Origin: Candidatus Enterococcus courvalinii
Lineage (GTDB): Bacteria > Bacillota > Bacilli > Lactobacillales > Enterococcaceae
Assembly (NCBI RefSeq): GCF_017315945.1
Contig: NZ_JAFLWI010000016.1
Span: forward strand, 124,001 to 188,000
DNA: 64,000 bases
Direction: 5' to 3'
Shown in pieces: positions 4,492 through 26,663 of this stretch. The translations under genes were made by a program, and so were the position numbers. The notes under the pieces are model-generated. The model ran no database searches. It had not been told where the DNA came from and saw only the letters and a list, made by a program, of their open reading frames with translations. The stretch's first letter is position 1; every line of letters begins with the position of its first letter.

Positions 4492-5240
4492 ACATTCAGA
4501 ATGAATCCGTACGAGTAAAGGTTCTTTACTATTTTTGACATCCCTTTTGTTAGCAATAAGTGTTCTTTGCCAGCCTTGTCTTCAAACAAAGTTAATTCGA
4601 AGTCACCGTATGCTGTAGGTAATTGAACAGTTGGTCGTTGATCTTCCAGATACTGTTTCAACTCTTCGACAGTAATAAGTGGCAACTGCCAGCTACGTGC
4701 CAAAACTTTGAGTTGCTCCAAACGTGCCATCGTTCCATCTTCATTTAGAATCTCACATATATAGGCTGCTTCTGATTGATTGGTTAATTTTGCTAAATCA
4801 AGCGCAGCCTCTGTATGTCCTCTTCGTGCCAAGACGCCACCTTCCTTGCCTATCAATGGAAAAACGTGACCTGGTTGATGGAACATCGTCGCTTTCGTTG
4901 TTGTTTGTCCTAAGGCTTTGATCGTCTTTGCTCGATCATAAGCAGAAATTCCAGTACTTGTGGTTTCATAATCAACACTGATTGTAAATGCCGTGCCAAA
5001 AGGATCGGTGTTTTTTTGAACCATCTCCGTTAACTCCAGCTGCTTAGCACGTTTAAGAGAGACTGGCGCACAAATTAGTCCTCGCGCGAATTTAGTCATA
5101 AAATTAATTGTTTCTGGTGAGACTAAGTTTGCGATTCCCACTAAATCTCCTTCTGCCTCCCGAGTTTCATCATCTGCTACGATAATTAAGTTTCCTTTTC
5201 GTAATTCTAGTAACGCTTCTTCGATTCTTTTATGGCTCAT
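4488..5240 (-). CDS. ribBA: 3,4-dihydroxy-2-butanone 4-phosphate synthase part of frameshifted RibBA
   Basis: Residues 1-200 are a complete RibB domain, which converts ribulose 5-phosphate to 3,4-dihydroxy-2-butanone 4-phosphate: VADDETREAEGDL (acidic loop), TSTGISAYDRAKTI and RRGHTEAALDLAKL are all present. The next 30 residues (PTAYGDFELTLFED) begin the GTP cyclohydrolase II domain. After LLLTKG the frame leaves the family sequence and ends 17 codons later, because one base is missing from a G run at 4542-4544. The ATG at 5240 follows AAGGA by 8 bases. RibB activity is likely retained; the second half depends on frameshifting, a sequence error or is lost. It lies between ribE and ribH in the operon. 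Confidence 0.85.
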   Translation of the reverse strand: MSHKRIEEALLELRKGNLIIVADDETREAEGDLVGIANLVSPETINFMTKFARGLICAPVSLKRAKQLELTEMVQKNTDPFGTAFTISVDYETTSTGISAYDRAKTIKALGQTTTKATMFHQPGHVFPLIGKEGGVLARRGHTEAALDLAKLTNQSEAAYICEILNEDGTMARLEQLKVLARSWQLPLITVEELKQYLEDQRPTVQLPTAYGDFELTLFEDKAGKEHLLLTKGMSKIVKNLYSYGFILNV

Positions 5241-5256
5241 CTGTCTTGTCCTTCTT

Positions 5257-5853
5257 TCACTTCTTACAAATTCCTTGTGCCTTTACATACTTTCCTAATA
5301 AGTCAGTTTCAATATTGACCGATTGGCCTTGAATCAGTTTTCCTAAATTTGTTTGCTCTTTTGAGTGTGGAATCAAGCTAACTGAAAATGTCTGCTCCGT
5401 AGTCGCTGTAACGGTTAGACTAACACCATTAATGGCAACCGACCCTTGCGAGATAATTTCACCTCTAAAAGTAGTGGGCAAAGCGAAAACGAAAACAAAG
5501 GCATTTTCTTGAATTCTTTTTTGTACCAAGTGGGTCGTACCATCTATGTGCCCAGTTACCAAATGGCCTTCTAGTCGTCCGTTGTAAGGCAATGCACGTT
5601 CCAAATTAACCAAATCACCAACTTTCATTTGTGAAAAAGTTGTTCGCCGATACGTTTCTGGCATCATTTCCACACAAAAGCTTCGATTGTTGATTGCGAT
5701 TGCTGTTAGACATGTACCATTGATAGCCATACTGTCTCCAATTTGATAATTATCTAGTAAGTGTTCAGAGGCTTCGCAAGTGAGTTCGATCGTGTGTCCG
5801 CGTCGGGTGATTTTAGTTACCTTCCCCTGTTCTTGAATCAATCCAGTAAACAT
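5257..5853 (-). CDS. ribE: Riboflavin synthase, alpha subunit
   Basis: A 198-residue riboflavin synthase, which dismutates two lumazine molecules into riboflavin. It shows the two internally repeated lumazine-binding barrels: MFTGLIQEQGKV at the start, GDSMAINGTCLT near residue 40, and the matching GSVAINGVSLTV near residue 135, plus EGHLVTGHIDGT at about 95. Normal family length. The start ATG overlaps the region just after ribD (one base between the genes). Second gene of the FMN-controlled operon; also called ribC in some species. Confidence 0.95.
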   Translation of the reverse strand: MFTGLIQEQGKVTKITRRGHTIELTCEASEHLLDNYQIGDSMAINGTCLTAIAINNRSFCVEMMPETYRRTTFSQMKVGDLVNLERALPYNGRLEGHLVTGHIDGTTHLVQKRIQENAFVFVFALPTTFRGEIISQGSVAINGVSLTVTATTEQTFSVSLIPHSKEQTNLGKLIQGQSVNIETDLLGKYVKAQGICKK

Positions 5854-5854
5854 T

Positions 5855-6913
5855 TTATACTCTGCTCCCCACGATTTTTATTGTATTATCTAACTTTTTG
5901 ACGGTGACATTGTTCAACTCTGTTACTTTTTCAGCAGGGCGACTAGAGGATATACTTGCGACACTATCACCACCTAAAATTTTTGGCACAATATAAGTAA
6001 TCAACTCTTCCCAACAACCACTTGCCAAAAAAGCATCATGAATCTTTGCACCACCTTCAACATACACAGATTGGATCAAGCGTTCTCCTAATTTCGTTAA
6101 TACATTGGGGATCAAGACTTCCGGCAGATAAATTACTTCAACATGTTTCGGTAATGCCCCACGAATTTCAGACCGTTCTGTAAAAATTAGAACTGGTGCT
6201 GTCTCATCTTGAAAAATAGCAAGATTGTCGCGTTCAACTACTCTTCCTCGTCGATCCAAGATTACTCGATAAAACGGAAACTCGTTTATCGCACTGTTTA
6301 ACGTGGGATCGTCAGTCAAAATGGTTTGACTACCAACCAAAATCGCTTGATAACTCGTTCTTTCTTCTCGAACCTTTTTCATCACATAATCATTTGTTAG
6401 TCTGGTTCGTTGGTTCAATAAGGCTAATTTTCCATCTAGTGATATTGCTTGTTTCAGCGCCACAAATGGCCGCTTCTTTTCAAAAAAATAATTGTAATGT
6501 CGGTTTAAATTTCGAACCTCTTCTTCCAACACGCCAACTAAAACGTGAATCCCATGATCTCGCAGTTTCTTGACTCCTCGACCAGATACTATAGGATTAG
6601 GGTCTAACTGTCCGACCACTACTTGCTTGATTCCAGCGGCAATAATTGCCTCTGTACAAGGTGGTTGTTTTCCGTGATGGTCACAAGGTTCTAAAGTGAC
6701 ATAAATTGTTGAATTGAGTAGTTTTTCGGGAGTATCGCATAAATAATCAATTGCTGCTTTTTCCGCATGTGCCTCGCCATATGCTAAATGTGCACCGACT
6801 GCTAGGACTTGATCGTCTTTCACAATGACTGCACCGACTAAAGGGTTCGTAAATGTTTTCCCACGTCCTTTTTCTGCTGCTAGAATCGCTTGTTTCATAA
6901 ATCGTTCATGCAA
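5855..6913 (-). CDS. ribD: Bifunctional pyrimidine deaminase/reductase RibD
   Basis: A 352-residue fusion that deaminates and reduces the pyrimidine product of GTP cyclohydrolase II. The N-terminal deaminase has the zinc site HAEKAA (about residue 50) and PCDHHGKQPPC (about 75-85). The C-terminal reductase (about 145-352) has FVALKQAISLDGKLA, a TDDPTLN loop and VEGGAKI. The start codon is TTG at 6913, 7 bases after AAGGAGG; the alternative ATG at 6898 would be 22 bases from it. It is first in the operon and lies 27 bases after the riboswitch terminator hairpin. Confidence 0.94.
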   Translation of the reverse strand: MHERFMKQAILAAEKGRGKTFTNPLVGAVIVKDDQVLAVGAHLAYGEAHAEKAAIDYLCDTPEKLLNSTIYVTLEPCDHHGKQPPCTEAIIAAGIKQVVVGQLDPNPIVSGRGVKKLRDHGIHVLVGVLEEEVRNLNRHYNYFFEKKRPFVALKQAISLDGKLALLNQRTRLTNDYVMKKVREERTSYQAILVGSQTILTDDPTLNSAINEFPFYRVILDRRGRVVERDNLAIFQDETAPVLIFTERSEIRGALPKHVEVIYLPEVLIPNVLTKLGERLIQSVYVEGGAKIHDAFLASGCWEELITYIVPKILGGDSVASISSSRPAEKVTELNNVTVKKLDNTIKIVGSRV

Positions 6914-22337: not shown

Positions 22338-22345
22338 GATTGTTT

Positions 22346-23566
22346 TTATTTTACAGACGCACTGGTTACCGCGTCTACTTCAGTTTCTTCATGTGTGCTA
22401 GCACTGGTTACTGCATCTGGTTTTTCATCATGAACAGACGCACTTGAAACCGCATCTTCTTTTCCAACAAGTTGTTGCCCCGTTTGTTGTAAGTACCACT
22501 CAATAATTGGCTTGAAATCAAGAATGTATTCATTGATTCCAGCGTACTCACCATTTTCATCATGCATTGCTTGGTAATTATGCACAATATATTTTTCTGG
22601 CACTTGTTTTGGTACATGAACCCGTACTGCGTCTGTTGCACCGCTACGTAGTTGTTGGATCACCCACTCTACATTCTTATACGATTTTTCTGGGTGGCAG
22701 TTGGCTAATGGATTCCCTACTTGACCTGGCACACGGGCAGCTAGCATCTCTTTTGCTTCTTGACGTAAATTGTAATATAAAAATTGGTTATTACTATCTG
22801 CAAAAGTTAATTCCATTGGCATTGAATCTAAAAAATAATTGATTTGATCCACGGTCAATAATCCACGATTTAATTTGACGTACGTCTTTCCAGAAACAGC
22901 ACCTACTGCTGCCGAAGCTTTCTCTAACCAATAATCATCTGACATATCAACATCAGGTATTGTTGTCGCAATTGTTCCCGTTGCATGAAGATCTTCAGGC
23001 GGAAGTTTTTTGGGCCCTGCTAGTGTAGAAACTACTTTAATAAACTTCACAAAGCTTGCTAATGTGCTGCCCAAAAACTGAATCGTTCGTTGATCAATCA
23101 AGTTATCTTCTTGGTCAAATGCTTCTTTTGCTTTTCCTAATAAAAACTCATTGCCGGGCATCACTAACGCATTCACACCAGGTGCATCCAAGATTTGACG
23201 TAAGTGTAATTGCGCACGTGAAGTTCCTTGATCGTAATAAGAAGCACCCACGACCATTACAGGTTTATTTTCAAGTGGATGGATTTTAAATGATAGCCAT
23301 TCAAGTACACTTTTCAATCCTGCTGGAACCGTATGATTATGTTCTGGTGTAGCGATGATGACTCCATCAGCCATTAATATTTTACGATTTAATTGTTGAA
23401 TAGCAGGACTATTTGTTTGATCATCATCTTGATTGAATAAAGGTAAATCTTTGATTTCAACAAGTTCTAAAGTAAATAACCCACGATATTGTTTTTTGAT
23501 AAATGCTAATAATTTACGGTTATATGAAAGTTCGGCTGCTGAGCCGACGATACCTATTAATTTCAT
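22346..23566 (-). CDS. NADPH-dependent FMN reductase-PAS fusion with triple flavinylation-like tail
   Basis: A 406-residue protein with no signal peptide. Residues 1-185 are an NADPH-dependent FMN reductase (flavodoxin-like) domain: GIVGSAAELSYN, VIIATPEHNHTVPAGLKSVLEW, VGASYYDQGTSRAQLHLRQIL. Residues about 235-360 resemble the PAS domain of DUF438 proteins (LLTVDQINYFLDSMPMELTF, GNPLANCHPEKS). The tail holds three motifs, DAVSSASV (371-378), DAVTSAST (384-391) and DAVTSASV (398-405), joined by short acidic spacers. These resemble the DxxS/T-G/S-A-T/S sites where ApbE attaches FMN by a phosphoester bond; Ser377, Ser390 and Ser404 would be the acceptors. An apbE gene is in the same operon, two genes upstream. 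I infer a cytosolic multi-flavin electron carrier/reductase. No FMN_bind domain accompanies the motifs. Confidence 0.85.
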   Translation of the reverse strand: MKLIGIVGSAAELSYNRKLLAFIKKQYRGLFTLELVEIKDLPLFNQDDDQTNSPAIQQLNRKILMADGVIIATPEHNHTVPAGLKSVLEWLSFKIHPLENKPVMVVGASYYDQGTSRAQLHLRQILDAPGVNALVMPGNEFLLGKAKEAFDQEDNLIDQRTIQFLGSTLASFVKFIKVVSTLAGPKKLPPEDLHATGTIATTIPDVDMSDDYWLEKASAAVGAVSGKTYVKLNRGLLTVDQINYFLDSMPMELTFADSNNQFLYYNLRQEAKEMLAARVPGQVGNPLANCHPEKSYKNVEWVIQQLRSGATDAVRVHVPKQVPEKYIVHNYQAMHDENGEYAGINEYILDFKPIIEWYLQQTGQQLVGKEDAVSSASVHDEKPDAVTSASTHEETEVDAVTSASVK

Positions 23567-23584
23567 CTTGTTTGCTCCCCTCGA

Positions 23585-24190
23585 TTAAATCGTTTCCCAT
23601 GAAAAGTTTTCAGCTTCACGTTTATTTGCTTGGTGCGCATGCTGCAACTGACTAGTGATTGTCACAAAGAGTAAGAAATCTTTGAATAGTTCGCGTAGCT
23701 TTGCAACTTGCTCTTCATCAACGAGTCGTCCTTGTTCATCAAAAGCTTGCAGGGAATGACCCAATAAAAATTCTGAACTTGGCATAATTCGTGCCTTTAA
23801 CTCTGGTGAATCTAATATTTGGCGCAAATGTGCTTGCGCGCGTGAAGAGCCTAACGTGCCATAAGACGCTCCGGTAATCATCACAGGCTTGTCCACAAAT
23901 GGAAAAATACCATATGAAAGCCAATTTAAGGCATTGATCAATGAAGCGGGAACCGCATGGTCATATTCTGGTGTGCTGATGATTACGCCGTCTGCTTGTT
24001 CAATTTTTTCAGCAATTTCTTTAACAGAAGTTGGTAGCTCTATTTTTTCAGGTTTATTAAACAGTGGTAACTCCTTGATTTCGACAATTTCAATTTCTGC
24101 TTCATTTACAAAATAGCTTTTCATAAATTGTAATAATTCACGGTTTGTTGACCGCACTGAATTTGTTCCTACTAATCCAATAAATTTCAT
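23585..24190 (-). CDS. NADPH-dependent FMN reductase-like protein
   Basis: A 201-residue flavodoxin-fold reductase of the NADPH_FMN_red family: GLVGTNSVRSTNRELL at the start, GVIISTPEYDHAVPASLINALNWL and TGASYGTLGSSRAQAHLRQIL. It aligns along its whole length with the first 185 residues of its downstream neighbour and is probably a duplicate; it lacks the PAS part and the flavinylation-like tail. It lies between apbE (39-base gap) and the fusion gene (18-base gap), so the three are one operon. It may supply reduced flavin or form a heterodimer with the fusion protein; both are inference. Confidence 0.88.
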   Translation of the reverse strand: MKFIGLVGTNSVRSTNRELLQFMKSYFVNEAEIEIVEIKELPLFNKPEKIELPTSVKEIAEKIEQADGVIISTPEYDHAVPASLINALNWLSYGIFPFVDKPVMITGASYGTLGSSRAQAHLRQILDSPELKARIMPSSEFLLGHSLQAFDEQGRLVDEEQVAKLRELFKDFLLFVTITSQLQHAHQANKREAENFSWETI

Positions 24191-24229
24191 CTTCGTTCTC
24201 TTTCCTTTCTAACATCAATCTCTGACAGT

Positions 24230-25171
24230 TTATACGAACGAAACTTTTTCAAATCCGCTTGTATAAACGAATTGGTTCTCTTTTGTTACAATTGCTCCCT
24301 CGATTCCCGTTTGTATTTCAAGCGCTTTCAACACTTCTGAAGCAGATGCACCAAATAAACGCGTAGTCCAGATTTCCCCATCTACGGAAGAATCAGACAA
24401 AATAGTTAAACTTGCTAGTTCATTTTTAACTGGAAAGCCAGTTTTCGGATCAATGATGTGATGATAAACTGACGAACCATTTTGCAAGTAACGTTCATAG
24501 ATGCCAGAGGTGACTAGCGATTGATTATTTAACTTGACTACCGCTAGCGAATCTTCACGCGAACCTTTAGGATTTCGCAAGCCAATACGCCAAAACCCAT
24601 CTGGATGTCTCGGCGCTTCACCAAAAACAACAATATTTCCTCCTAAGTTGACTAAAGCAAATGCAGCTTTTCGTTCACGACAATATTCAACTAATTTATC
24701 TGCAATGTACCCCTTTGCTAACGATCCCAAATCAATCATCATTCCTGGTTTTGTTAGGAAAACACTTTTCATTTGTTCATCTAATTGAATTTGATGTGGA
24801 TCTGTTAATGGTAGTAGCTCAGCTATCTCTGCTTTTGTTGGAACTAGTGCGTCTTCAAAACCAATATGCCACTTCTGTACAACTGGACCAATCGCAATAT
24901 TCAAGTAGCTATTTCTCACACAACTATGTTCTTTCCCTACCTTGATTAGCTCAAAAAGTTCAGGATGGACAACAACTGCTTGTTGTCCAGCAGCCCGATT
25001 AATAGCCATTAATTCAGAAGTTGCATCATGTGCACTGAAGCGATGCTCGTAAACGTGCAACAACTTGTCTAGCTCTGCTAGTAACTGATCTGGTTTTTCA
25101 TGTCCAACTTGTAACGTAATTGTCGTCCCCATCATTTGCCAGACTTTCGTTTCTTCAATCACCTGATTCAT
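24230..25171 (-). CDS. apbE: FAD:protein FMN transferase ApbE, probably cytosolic
   Basis: A 313-residue ApbE-family flavin transferase, which uses FAD to attach FMN to Ser/Thr of target proteins. Seen are MGTTITLQV, the FAD-site DLGSLAKGYIADKLVEYC, NLGGNIVVFGEAP, HHIIDPKTGFPV, and the C-terminal magnesium region SSVDGEIWTTRLFG. The ATG at 25171 is 7 bases after AGAAGG; a 13-codon longer TTG/ATG frame adds no lipobox or hydrophobic stretch, so unlike most Gram-positive ApbE lipoproteins this one should stay in the cytosol. Its likely substrate is the three-motif protein two genes downstream. First gene of the operon. Confidence 0.93.
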   Translation of the reverse strand: MNQVIEETKVWQMMGTTITLQVGHEKPDQLLAELDKLLHVYEHRFSAHDATSELMAINRAAGQQAVVVHPELFELIKVGKEHSCVRNSYLNIAIGPVVQKWHIGFEDALVPTKAEIAELLPLTDPHQIQLDEQMKSVFLTKPGMMIDLGSLAKGYIADKLVEYCRERKAAFALVNLGGNIVVFGEAPRHPDGFWRIGLRNPKGSREDSLAVVKLNNQSLVTSGIYERYLQNGSSVYHHIIDPKTGFPVKNELASLTILSDSSVDGEIWTTRLFGASASEVLKALEIQTGIEGAIVTKENQFVYTSGFEKVSFV

Positions 25172-25239
25172 TTCTGTACCTTCTTTACTTGAACTACAAA
25201 TTCGATGCAACTAATTTTTGTTACTGTTTTCACAATCCG

Positions 25240-25268
25240 AGGATACGCCTGCTAATTTTATTTGTCAA
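25240..25268 (-). promoter_or_regulatory. Promoter of the apbE operon
   Basis: Minus-strand TTGACA (25263-25268) and TATCCT (25240-25245) are 17 bases apart. An upstream dyad, TATAAC-N6-GTTATA at 25290-25307 in very A/T-rich DNA, is a possible operator. Confidence 0.65.
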
Positions 25269-25326
25269 CCATTTTTATATATTTTTTTATATAACTCTGT
25301 TGTTATAATATATTTTTTTATATTAT

Positions 25327-25386
25327 TAAAAAACAAATAAGGGGAAGCAAACAACACATCTTTGTGTCTTGTTCGCTTCCCCTTAA
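25327..25386 (-). terminator. Terminator of the RNPP-type regulator gene
   Basis: AAGGGGAAGC and GCTTCCCCTT pair, with further CAA/TTG and CACA/TGTG pairing inside, then TTATTTGTTTTTT on the minus strand. The stretch 25387-25578, between it and the regulator stop, shows nothing else I can name. Confidence 0.85.
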
Positions 25387-25578
25387 CTATGATTTTCTAT
25401 TTGATGACTAAAAATTATGCAACGACAGACTGTAATCAAGCCCAATTTACAGCGTATTTTGCGCGAATTATAACTTTATTTTATTACCTTATCTTGTTGC
25501 TAGACTCTTCTATTCCTAATCATCTTTGGTAAATTTGTTCAAAATGAGAAGTTATCATAACAAAAATAATTTTTTTCC

Positions 25579-26442
25579 TTAATTAACCAACAGAACCTTT
25601 TTTTTCATAAGATTTAATTCATCAATCAATTTTTTGTTTTTATTAATTTTTGCAAAAGCTAGTGCATCTTGAATCAATTCGAGAACTTCTGCCTTCGACT
25701 TATTTTCGGCTTGTGCGTTCTTCGCTAATTGAGCAGCAGCTCGAGCTAGATAATAAGTTAAATGGTTGTCTGAACAAATGTCGATTGCATAATTTAGCAA
25801 AGCATCACTTGTTTCCAAATCACCATCTTGCGCAAAAAAAACACCACAATGAAAGACGATGTTTAGCACCCGCCAGGTGTCTTCTGTTGTACGAATCGGA
25901 TACGTATAGATTTTTTCAAACACGCGATTGAAATAAACTTCTGCCTTCTCCAATTCTTTTTCTCTAGCATAGACCATCCCAATCCCTGTATATGCCAGTA
26001 AACGAAACAATGTATTCGCCGTTTCTGCCATCAACAACTGATCAAAATGGAACAACACATCCGTGATCGATGCATTCGTAAAAATCATTTCAAACCCTTT
26101 TAGATAGTAGTAACGTGCAATCAAATCAGGATCATCGATCACCTTAGGATCAATAGCTGCTAAAATCTGTGTCAATTGTTCATATTCACTTGTAATCAAT
26201 GAAAACTCTGCTTTTTCTAACTGTTCGTCCAGTTGTGTATTGATTACATTCATCGAAGAAAAAAGTTCGACCAGTGGAAGATTGATTCGATTACATAATT
26301 TAATTAAAATTTTTAACGAAGGGACTTGACCATTATTCTCAAATTTACTCAATGTCGCTTGTGTACAAATTCCTTCAGACAACTCTTTTTGAGATAAGTT
26401 CGCAGCCTTTCTTGCCATAATAAATTTTTCAATGTTCATCAT
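25579..26442 (-). CDS. HTH-TPR transcriptional regulator of the Rgg/PlcR (RNPP-like) type
   Basis: A 287-residue regulator with an N-terminal XRE helix-turn-helix (residues about 5-60: MARKAANLSQKELSEGICTQATLSKFENNGQVPSL) and a C-terminal all-helical TPR-like array (about 75-285). This architecture belongs to Rgg/PlcR/MutR-type proteins, many of which bind short peptide pheromones. No peptide gene with a good ribosome site is visible beside it. It is upstream of, and on the same strand as, the apbE operon but separated by a strong terminator; control of that operon is possible but only by proximity. Start is the first or second of two adjacent methionines. Confidence 0.8.
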   Translation of the reverse strand: MMNIEKFIMARKAANLSQKELSEGICTQATLSKFENNGQVPSLKILIKLCNRINLPLVELFSSMNVINTQLDEQLEKAEFSLITSEYEQLTQILAAIDPKVIDDPDLIARYYYLKGFEMIFTNASITDVLFHFDQLLMAETANTLFRLLAYTGIGMVYAREKELEKAEVYFNRVFEKIYTYPIRTTEDTWRVLNIVFHCGVFFAQDGDLETSDALLNYAIDICSDNHLTYYLARAAAQLAKNAQAENKSKAEVLELIQDALAFAKINKNKKLIDELNLMKKKVLLVN

Positions 26443-26663
26443 TTTCTCTCCAATCAGACCTCACAACAAAATCATTTCTGTCTCGATTTTAGCATGTTTT
26501 CTTTGGGAATGCTTTACTTGGTTAAGATATCAGGTACTTTTTTACTGCTATACATCCGATAGAAGTTTCACTTTTATCCATGTAAAAAAAGTCCAAGAAT
26601 ATCAACCAATCTTTTGGCGCTGATCCTTTTAGAAAACTGGCTGAAAAAAAGAACAAAGACAAA

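Follow-up and report, generated by a model that had tools for sequence, protein, structure and literature searches.

A predicted FMN-accepting tail on a flavin reductase-PAS fusion encoded beside apbE in Candidatus Enterococcus courvalinii

Gene content of the locus

A 64,000-nucleotide stretch of Candidatus Enterococcus courvalinii contig NZ_JAFLWI010000016.1 (positions 124,001 to 188,000; "the window" means this whole stretch) encodes, on its minus strand, a compact gene unit that ends in FUS, a fusion of a flavin mononucleotide (FMN) reductase domain (FMN_red), a PAS_10 domain and a short C-terminal tail. An earlier reading of the same letters, hereafter the original prediction, held that FUS is accompanied by a second flavin reductase gene (FR) and by apbE, and that its flexible tail carries up to three covalent FMN groups. 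Open reading frames (ORFs) and Pfam confirm the three genes, including the fusion of 406 amino acids (aa), and place the tail motifs at residues 371, 384 and 398 with Ser377, Ser390 and Ser404 as the claimed acceptors; AlphaFold2 likewise models the tail as flexible. The features are as follows.

22346..23566, minus strand: FUS, the FMN_red-PAS_10-tail fusion, 406 aa, 45.1 kDa (ORF and Pfam)
23126..23566, minus strand: FMN_red domain of FUS, ChrR/YieF-like, residues 1-147, Pfam E 2.4e-36
22514..22843, minus strand: PAS_10 domain of FUS, residues 242-351, Pfam E 1.7e-30; nearest solved structure 2qkp (C-terminal domain, SMU_1151c)
22349..22462, minus strand: disordered C-terminal tail of FUS, residues 369-406, AlphaFold2 pLDDT <50
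22436..22456, minus strand: motif 1, DAVSSAS, residues 371-377, predicted FMN acceptor Ser377
22397..22417, minus strand: motif 2, DAVTSAS, residues 384-390, predicted FMN acceptor Ser390
22355..22375, minus strand: motif 3, DAVTSAS, residues 398-404, predicted FMN acceptor Ser404
23585..24190, minus strand: FR, partner FMN_red subunit, 201 aa, FMN_red E 5e-35 (Pfam)
24230..25171, minus strand: apbE, FAD:protein FMN transferase of cytosolic type, 313 aa from ATG, Pfam ApbE E 2.5e-74
25579..26442, minus strand: REG, regulator with a helix-turn-helix (HTH) and a TPR-like region, fourth gene of the unit; a similar gene occurs in 54 of 108 FUS loci and in an E. faecium plasmid cassette
22285..22345, minus strand: hairpin followed by a T run directly after the FUS stop, a probable terminator (z -5.23; 0 of 200 shuffles fold equally well)

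The genes lie close together, with gaps of 39 bp between apbE and FR and 18 bp between FR and FUS, and REG, which the original prediction had missed, seems to be the fourth member of a regulator-apbE-FR-FUS unit. ApbE scores 250.6 bits against PF02424, for which the curated cut-off is 25.6, and its N-terminus, read by eye, has neither a signal peptide nor a lipobox; an alternative TTG start at 25210 would give 326 aa. A second ApbE of the source genome, on contig C23, bears the lipobox LVGCGSS. Pfam searches of FUS up to E 1 returned neither FMN_bind nor FAD_binding_2, so the protein is not of the fumarate-reductase type, and its PAS_10 domain is all that it has in common with DUF438-hemerythrin-PAS_10 proteins, DUF438 and hemerythrin domains being absent. 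The two solved structures among PAS relatives, 2qkp and 3cax, both carry the description uncharacterised protein, and our literature search found no paper treating DUF438, PAS and hemerythrin together. The terminator is missing from a pattern scan that admits only loops of 3-8, and a promoter scan of the window was uninformative (7 hits against a shuffle mean of 14.8).

FR ends in a conserved peptide, NFSWETI (F-x-W-E; window 23588-23608). Tryptophan occurs within the last 12 residues of 100 of the 107 FR proteins.

Tail motifs and their association with ApbE

The pattern D-x-x-[ST]-[GSA]-A-[ST] is matched by FUS and by no other product among the 63 kept window ORFs of at least 80 aa (19,001 residues). 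The original prediction had proposed counting tail motifs in relatives beside apbE, and among 101 distinct fusions from 108 loci, counted at one genome per species, we found zero, one, two, three and four strict motifs in 4, 5, 48, 33 and 11 proteins, respectively. Outside the tails, the 36,865 core residues of 101 homologues hold just 3 strict motifs, whereas the tails, with a median length of 47 residues, mostly hold two or three each; because of this difference, and because a single window ORF matches the pattern, the window motifs are not a product of chance. The linkers between motifs vary in length and in letters (median spacing of relaxed motifs, 15), and the last relaxed motif ends 1-4 residues from the C-terminus in 97 of 101 fusions. 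Flavin tagging is reported to be most efficient at the end of a protein (PMC12052999). At position 5, the 261 relaxed motifs of 101 relatives have Gly in 156 cases and Ser in 105, and all 20 further loci bear one to four motifs (one of them, L262, is the same contig as L166). One of the four fusions that lack a strict motif is a broken gene whose tail was read as empty (L165). As far as sequence comparison can tell, the tail is selected for its motifs, which persist as the linkers change.

The sampled stretches end at contig ends, and counts of neighbouring genes are thus lower bounds. Within them, apbE accompanies FUS in 92 of 108 loci, and in all 16 remaining cases an ApbE is encoded elsewhere in the genome; in genome G514 the only ApbE found has an unclear start. 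FR adjoins FUS in 107 of 108 loci and, apart from FUS, FR, apbE and REG, no cluster of neighbours occurs in more than 15. In the source genus, FUS and a short ApbE are found in the same 2 of 15 genomes, each of which also has a long ApbE; among the other 13, one lacks ApbE altogether and 12 have the long type only, in one case plus a fragment. Together with a published precedent from Lactococcus, these patterns of co-occurrence support the view that a soluble reductase with a flavinylatable tail is paired with an ApbE of cytosolic type.

In that precedent, two Lactococcus FMN_red proteins with C-terminal motifs were flavinylated, as seen on gels under UV light, and the signal was lost in alanine mutants (Huang 2024, PMC11334425). 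The Results of the paper describe co-expression with the cognate apbE and its Methods describe lysates treated with Listeria ApbE. Like FUS, these mostly Firmicutes proteins combine an FMN_red domain, a motif-bearing C-terminal extension and an apbE neighbour. They are described with one to two motifs, however, and the word PAS is absent from the paper, whereas FUS has three motifs and an intervening PAS_10 domain. Two features had been put forward as new, and they fare differently. PAS-FMN reductase fusions were already noted in 2015 in other species (Lp2732, EF1227; Valladares et al. 2015, PMC4500961), so that this claim falls. As for tandem motifs, FMN_red tails with one or two are known since 2024, and what stands is that three exceed the number stated there.

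Chains with three or four covalent FMN groups, comparable to the up to three predicted for FUS, are known among secreted proteins (Tong et al. 2023, PMC10339131); these are described as extracellular and hold each FMN in a folded domain, in contrast to the bare motifs on the cytosolic tail of FUS. The soluble fumarate reductase of Klebsiella pneumoniae also joins a cytosolic ApbE to a soluble redox enzyme, with a different substrate architecture (PMC12052999). In a serum-response study (PMC10269507), one table lists two Streptococcus mitis genes together, one for an FMN transferase and one for an NAD(P)H-dependent oxidoreductase, each at 1.51.

The PAS-tail module and a predicted path for electrons

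In genus g25, which we take to be Lactobacillus, the components of FUS reside on separate genes. The two reductases, of ~178-197 aa each, are motif-free in the 10 pairs read, and the tail is borne by a stand-alone PAS protein of 27.8-28.1 kDa (six weighed), which carries three strict motifs in 10 of 12 loci, two in another and one in the last, where the gene has an internal stop (14 genomes). The PAS gene lies tens to hundreds of kb from the reductase pair where both are on one contig, and in 14 of 14 genomes a short ApbE, with an open frame of 308-327 aa, is encoded at a distance of 933-2041 bp from that pair, measured from match edge to match edge. Motif-free homologues near apbE alongside unlinked homologues with motifs had been named in the original prediction as evidence against it, and, taken literally, this is what g25 contains, with a motif-free pair and a distant PAS protein bearing up to three motifs. 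We nonetheless read the split as support for a PAS-tail carrier and not as a refutation, since the motifs there travel with the PAS module. The original prediction had overlooked that a separate PAS protein can bear them.

The g25 layout of a motif-free pair plus a separate 28-kDa PAS protein is also that of Lactobacillus johnsonii, in which FRedA and FRedB are encoded in sequence and are accompanied by the 28-kDa PAS protein LjPAS (PMC4500961). FRedA and FRedB form an obligate heterodimer with two FMN sites (KD ~2 µM) that is only partly loaded when purified; the enzyme is specific for NADH, uses FMN as a substrate (Km 20 µM), forms H2O2 and is inactive with the quinones tried, and an L. johnsonii strain lacking the pair is available (PMC4500961). 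The g25 proteins carry T9/S14/F44/E73/D75 and S9/S14/F44/E73/Q75, as named for pockets A and B (5 of 5 loci), and 10 of the 12 named pocket residues stand at the stated places, the exceptions being Ser106, found in neither protein, and pocket-B Ser111, which sits in the A-like protein. The window unit resembles the L. johnsonii system in its two adjacent FMN_red genes and its PAS_10 module, whereas in the latter the PAS domain is on a separate gene, the flavin is treated as non-covalent and ApbE goes unmentioned in the paper. The two FMN_red genes of the window, which the original prediction had not connected, probably encode the partner subunits of a single heterodimer.

Based on these comparisons, we consider it probable, with some reserve, that the PAS-borne tail holds covalent FMN as a tethered acceptor of the reductase dimer, from which electrons pass to O2 or another acceptor. 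FUS and FR would form a soluble heterodimeric NAD(P)H:FMN oxidoreductase, the fused counterpart of FRedA/FRedB plus LjPAS, and at between one and three of the tail motifs the neighbouring cytosolic ApbE would couple FMN to the final serine. These FMN groups would then act as a tethered flavin substrate, each reducible at a flavin site of the FMN_red dimer, and once reduced would pass electrons on, either to O2, yielding H2O2, or, in certain species, to a soluble reductase. Several covalent FMN groups would provide a high local flavin concentration and allow several electrons to leave per encounter, and PAS_10, lying between reductase and tail, may position the tail or gate assembly. Of these roles docking or positioning is the likeliest, because the g25 tail, when separate from the reductase, sits on the PAS protein; against it, tail-type FMN_red proteins of genera g86 and g92 have the tail without a PAS domain in the chain, and at 7 of their 11 loci the stretch read contains no PAS gene. 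We infer the flavin on FUS from motif and context, and likewise the number of sites used, the carrier role, the PAS role and the acceptor.

The tail could instead merely anchor the prosthetic FMN of the FMN_red sites as a covalent cofactor, with the extra motifs redundant and no shuttling. In the published models the C-terminal extension comes close to the flavin sites, and flavinylation has been argued to secure a formerly non-covalent flavin (PMC11334425); with a KD of about 2 µM and partial loading, FRedA/FRedB would indeed profit from tethering (PMC4500961). A heterodimer has two sites, however, yet 44 of 101 fusions carry three or four strict motifs, a PAS domain of ~110 residues separates reductase from tail, and the g25 motifs are on another protein altogether. 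On balance we find this explanation unlikely.

A different possibility is that the PAS-tail senses redox state or flavin and controls reductase assembly, with covalent flavin as the signal and not as a carrier. LjPAS slows assembly, in that the initial rate fell by roughly half after it had been preincubated with FRedB, and the LjPAS gene is oxygen-responsive; LjPAS was, however, without further effect after the heterodimer had formed with FMN (PMC4500961), and up to four flavins seem more than a sensor should need. This role appears quite improbable to us.

Several observations weigh against tail-borne flavin carriers. Three fusion tails lack a strict motif, two of them having repeats with Ala at position 4 (L169, L181) and one having degenerate repeats (L075). 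All 3 window motifs carry Ser where the reviewed consensus D-x-x-[S/T]-G-A-[S/T] has Gly, a departure on which the original prediction laid no stress, and changing this Gly to Ala cut flavinylation to about half (PMC12052999). In genome G510, a metagenome assembly with the fusion, a lipobox-type ApbE is the sole one found. The g25 pair is not placed with FR and FUS in our tree, both of its members branching at the base on long branches with unsettled bootstrap. The tail is not required for FRedA/FRedB activity, because the assays ran on added free FMN, in a paper that nowhere names ApbE (PMC4500961). The modelled proximity of motifs to the reductase's own flavin site also fits a covalent cofactor (PMC11334425). 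Finally, we found no flavin measurement for FUS or any known PAS-bearing member.

A broader proposal, which we put forward tentatively and regard as possible, is that PAS_10-tail is a dedicated cytosolic flavin-carrier domain, loaded by ApbE with two to four FMN, and that the FRedA/FRedB-type NADH reductases of lactic acid bacteria naturally pass their electrons to such tethered flavins and not to free FMN. The module would occur fused, as a separate 28-kDa protein of the LjPAS type or as an orphan, and its number of flavins would tune electron flow to O2 and H2O2 or to reductases. Should ApbE act on the PAS-tail, the E. coli-produced LjPAS of the in vitro work was probably unmodified, and deletion of apbE should alter the H2O2 output of probiotic lactobacilli. 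Multi-flavin carriers would thereby be placed in the cytosol, and the second ApbE, lacking a signal, that some lactic acid bacteria retain would have a possible explanation. The proposal would also connect two literatures, that of the H2O2-linked NADH:flavin reductase of L. johnsonii and that of ApbE flavinylation; in the single literature collection searched, we found no paper that joins an H2O2-forming reductase of this type with ApbE flavinylation and none that pairs LjPAS with flavinylation; four papers matching both 'freda' and flavinylation deal, going by title, with human or yeast riboflavin and acyl-CoA dehydrogenase deficiency.

Related architectures and distribution

A sister fusion of ~810 aa has the order FMN_red-FMN_bind-FAD_binding_2 (two proteins scanned with Pfam, the rest found by BLAST). 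It shares with FUS a related FMN_red domain, its own paired FR (ending in F-x-W in 5 of the 5 read), a flavinylation motif and, in 5 of 7 loci, apbE within the stretch; at one locus (L241) it is spread over two frames. It differs in having a single motif inside FMN_bind and a built-in FAD_binding_2 domain where FUS has PAS and tail. In our tree, with bootstrap unsettled, FUS forms one clade (100/99) that groups with the N-terminal domains of the sister fusion (98/99), and the sister FR proteins group with FR (100/99). This topology suggests an old FMN_red pair whose C-terminal module was swapped; the branching order of FUS and sister fusion is weakly supported.

The sister fusion unites reductase and fumarate-type activities in one chain, which invites the view that FUS and FR mainly serve as the NADH-side donor for a soluble FAD_binding_2 (fumarate-type) reductase, as its split version. 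One locus (L076, 2803-7781) does form a contiguous operon of fumC, an FAD_binding_2 protein, FR and FUS, and in Limosilactobacillus fermentum (L251, 1195-6353) the pair is divergent from genes annotated as flavocytochrome c and fumarate hydratase. Just two such loci were seen, however, and a stand-alone reductase is present in 26 of the 38 fusion genomes of the family against 42 of the 67 others (Fisher p = 0.67). A general partnership with fumarate reductase was rejected on these grounds, and we hold such a main role to be very improbable. For the tethered-FMN reading, O2 as acceptor fits L. johnsonii, and a fumarate-type reductase would fit L076 and L. fermentum, not the family as a whole.

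The tail repeats of the L. fermentum fusion have Ala at position 4. Two further stretches encode 826-aa proteins with FMN_bind at the C-terminus, FMN_red-FAD_binding_2-FMN_bind, each with a neighbouring small FMN_red (L099, 591-3071; L100, 5744-8224), and contain no apbE match.

PAS-less FMN_red-tail proteins were found at 11 loci of genera g86 and g92, the latter presumably Lactococcus. Nine of the 11 have one to four motifs and the other two (L225, L229) only the variant DADTGST; apbE is adjacent in 10. Several tail-type FMN_red proteins have W-W-I-E repeats preceding their motifs. At four of these loci (L222, L224, L230, L234; one Pfam-scanned) there is a separate small PAS_10 gene. In the PAS tree, the PAS domains of 12 fusions form one group with two orphan PAS-tail proteins (100/100), and the solo PAS genes that neighbour tail-type FMN_red cluster, on long branches, with the PAS domains of DUF438 proteins and not with fusion PAS; judged from these groupings, more than one PAS recruitment is possible. 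The orphan PAS_10-tail proteins lack a reductase domain, one (L168, 4111-4803, Atopostipes) having two motifs and adjoining a full operon and the other (L240, 1916-2665) having degenerate repeats.

The fusion is widespread in Lactobacillales and present in some Bacillaceae. FUS is found in E. thailandicus (G012) at 95%, and 38 of 105 genomes of the family were read as having it, one of them interrupted by a contig end. At E 1e-20, matches occur in 229 of the 395 genomes of the order, FMN_red-only relatives included; at E 1e-60, a sample drawn across the phylum gave 2 matching genomes among 398, both from Lactobacillales. A scan of named genomes gave 392 stretches encoding a relative, and the best 80 of these 392, which were kept, include Enterococcus, Vagococcus, Tetragenococcus, Trichococcus, Gemella, Lapidilactobacillus and Bacillaceae such as Oceanobacillus.

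The unit is also carried by plasmids. FUS matches 95 Enterococcus plasmid records, and the order regulator-apbE-FR-FUS recurs on large E. faecium plasmids. On NZ_CP017793 (L221, 7182-11290) the regulator, ApbE, FR and FUS proteins are 97, 88, 96 and 94% identical to those of the window, and the DNA match (88.4%) runs from window position 22343 to 26541, comprising the four genes and ~100 bp upstream of the regulator, with the window terminator hairpin falling outside. An IS1216 transposase gene is annotated immediately downstream in all 5 E. faecium plasmids inspected and immediately upstream in 2 of them (L221, L247-L250; gene tables incomplete), and in L250 the FUS match ends at residue 249, followed by IS1216. 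A viral origin and a defence role were considered and rejected: none of 54 pattern-matching viral stretches encoded a relative and, as to a defence system, apbE, FR and FUS have no PADLOC match at E 0.01, matches of REG being limited to its HTH region.

A few loci depart from these arrangements. At L239, overlapping frames encode an FMN_red protein (5014-5556, 180 aa) and a PAS-tail protein with two motifs (5528-6259, 243 aa), either a natural split or a broken gene. Genus g39 (L279, L282) has FMN_red proteins of 415-416 aa with four motifs, ~30% identity to FUS and apbE directly downstream. PAS_10-like proteins also lie near the operon in three Alkalibacterium species (L149, L150, L153; ~3.5-4.9 kb) and in Aquibacillus (L172, 11733-12986), and that of L149, the only one scanned, is a DUF438-hemerythrin-PAS_10 protein.

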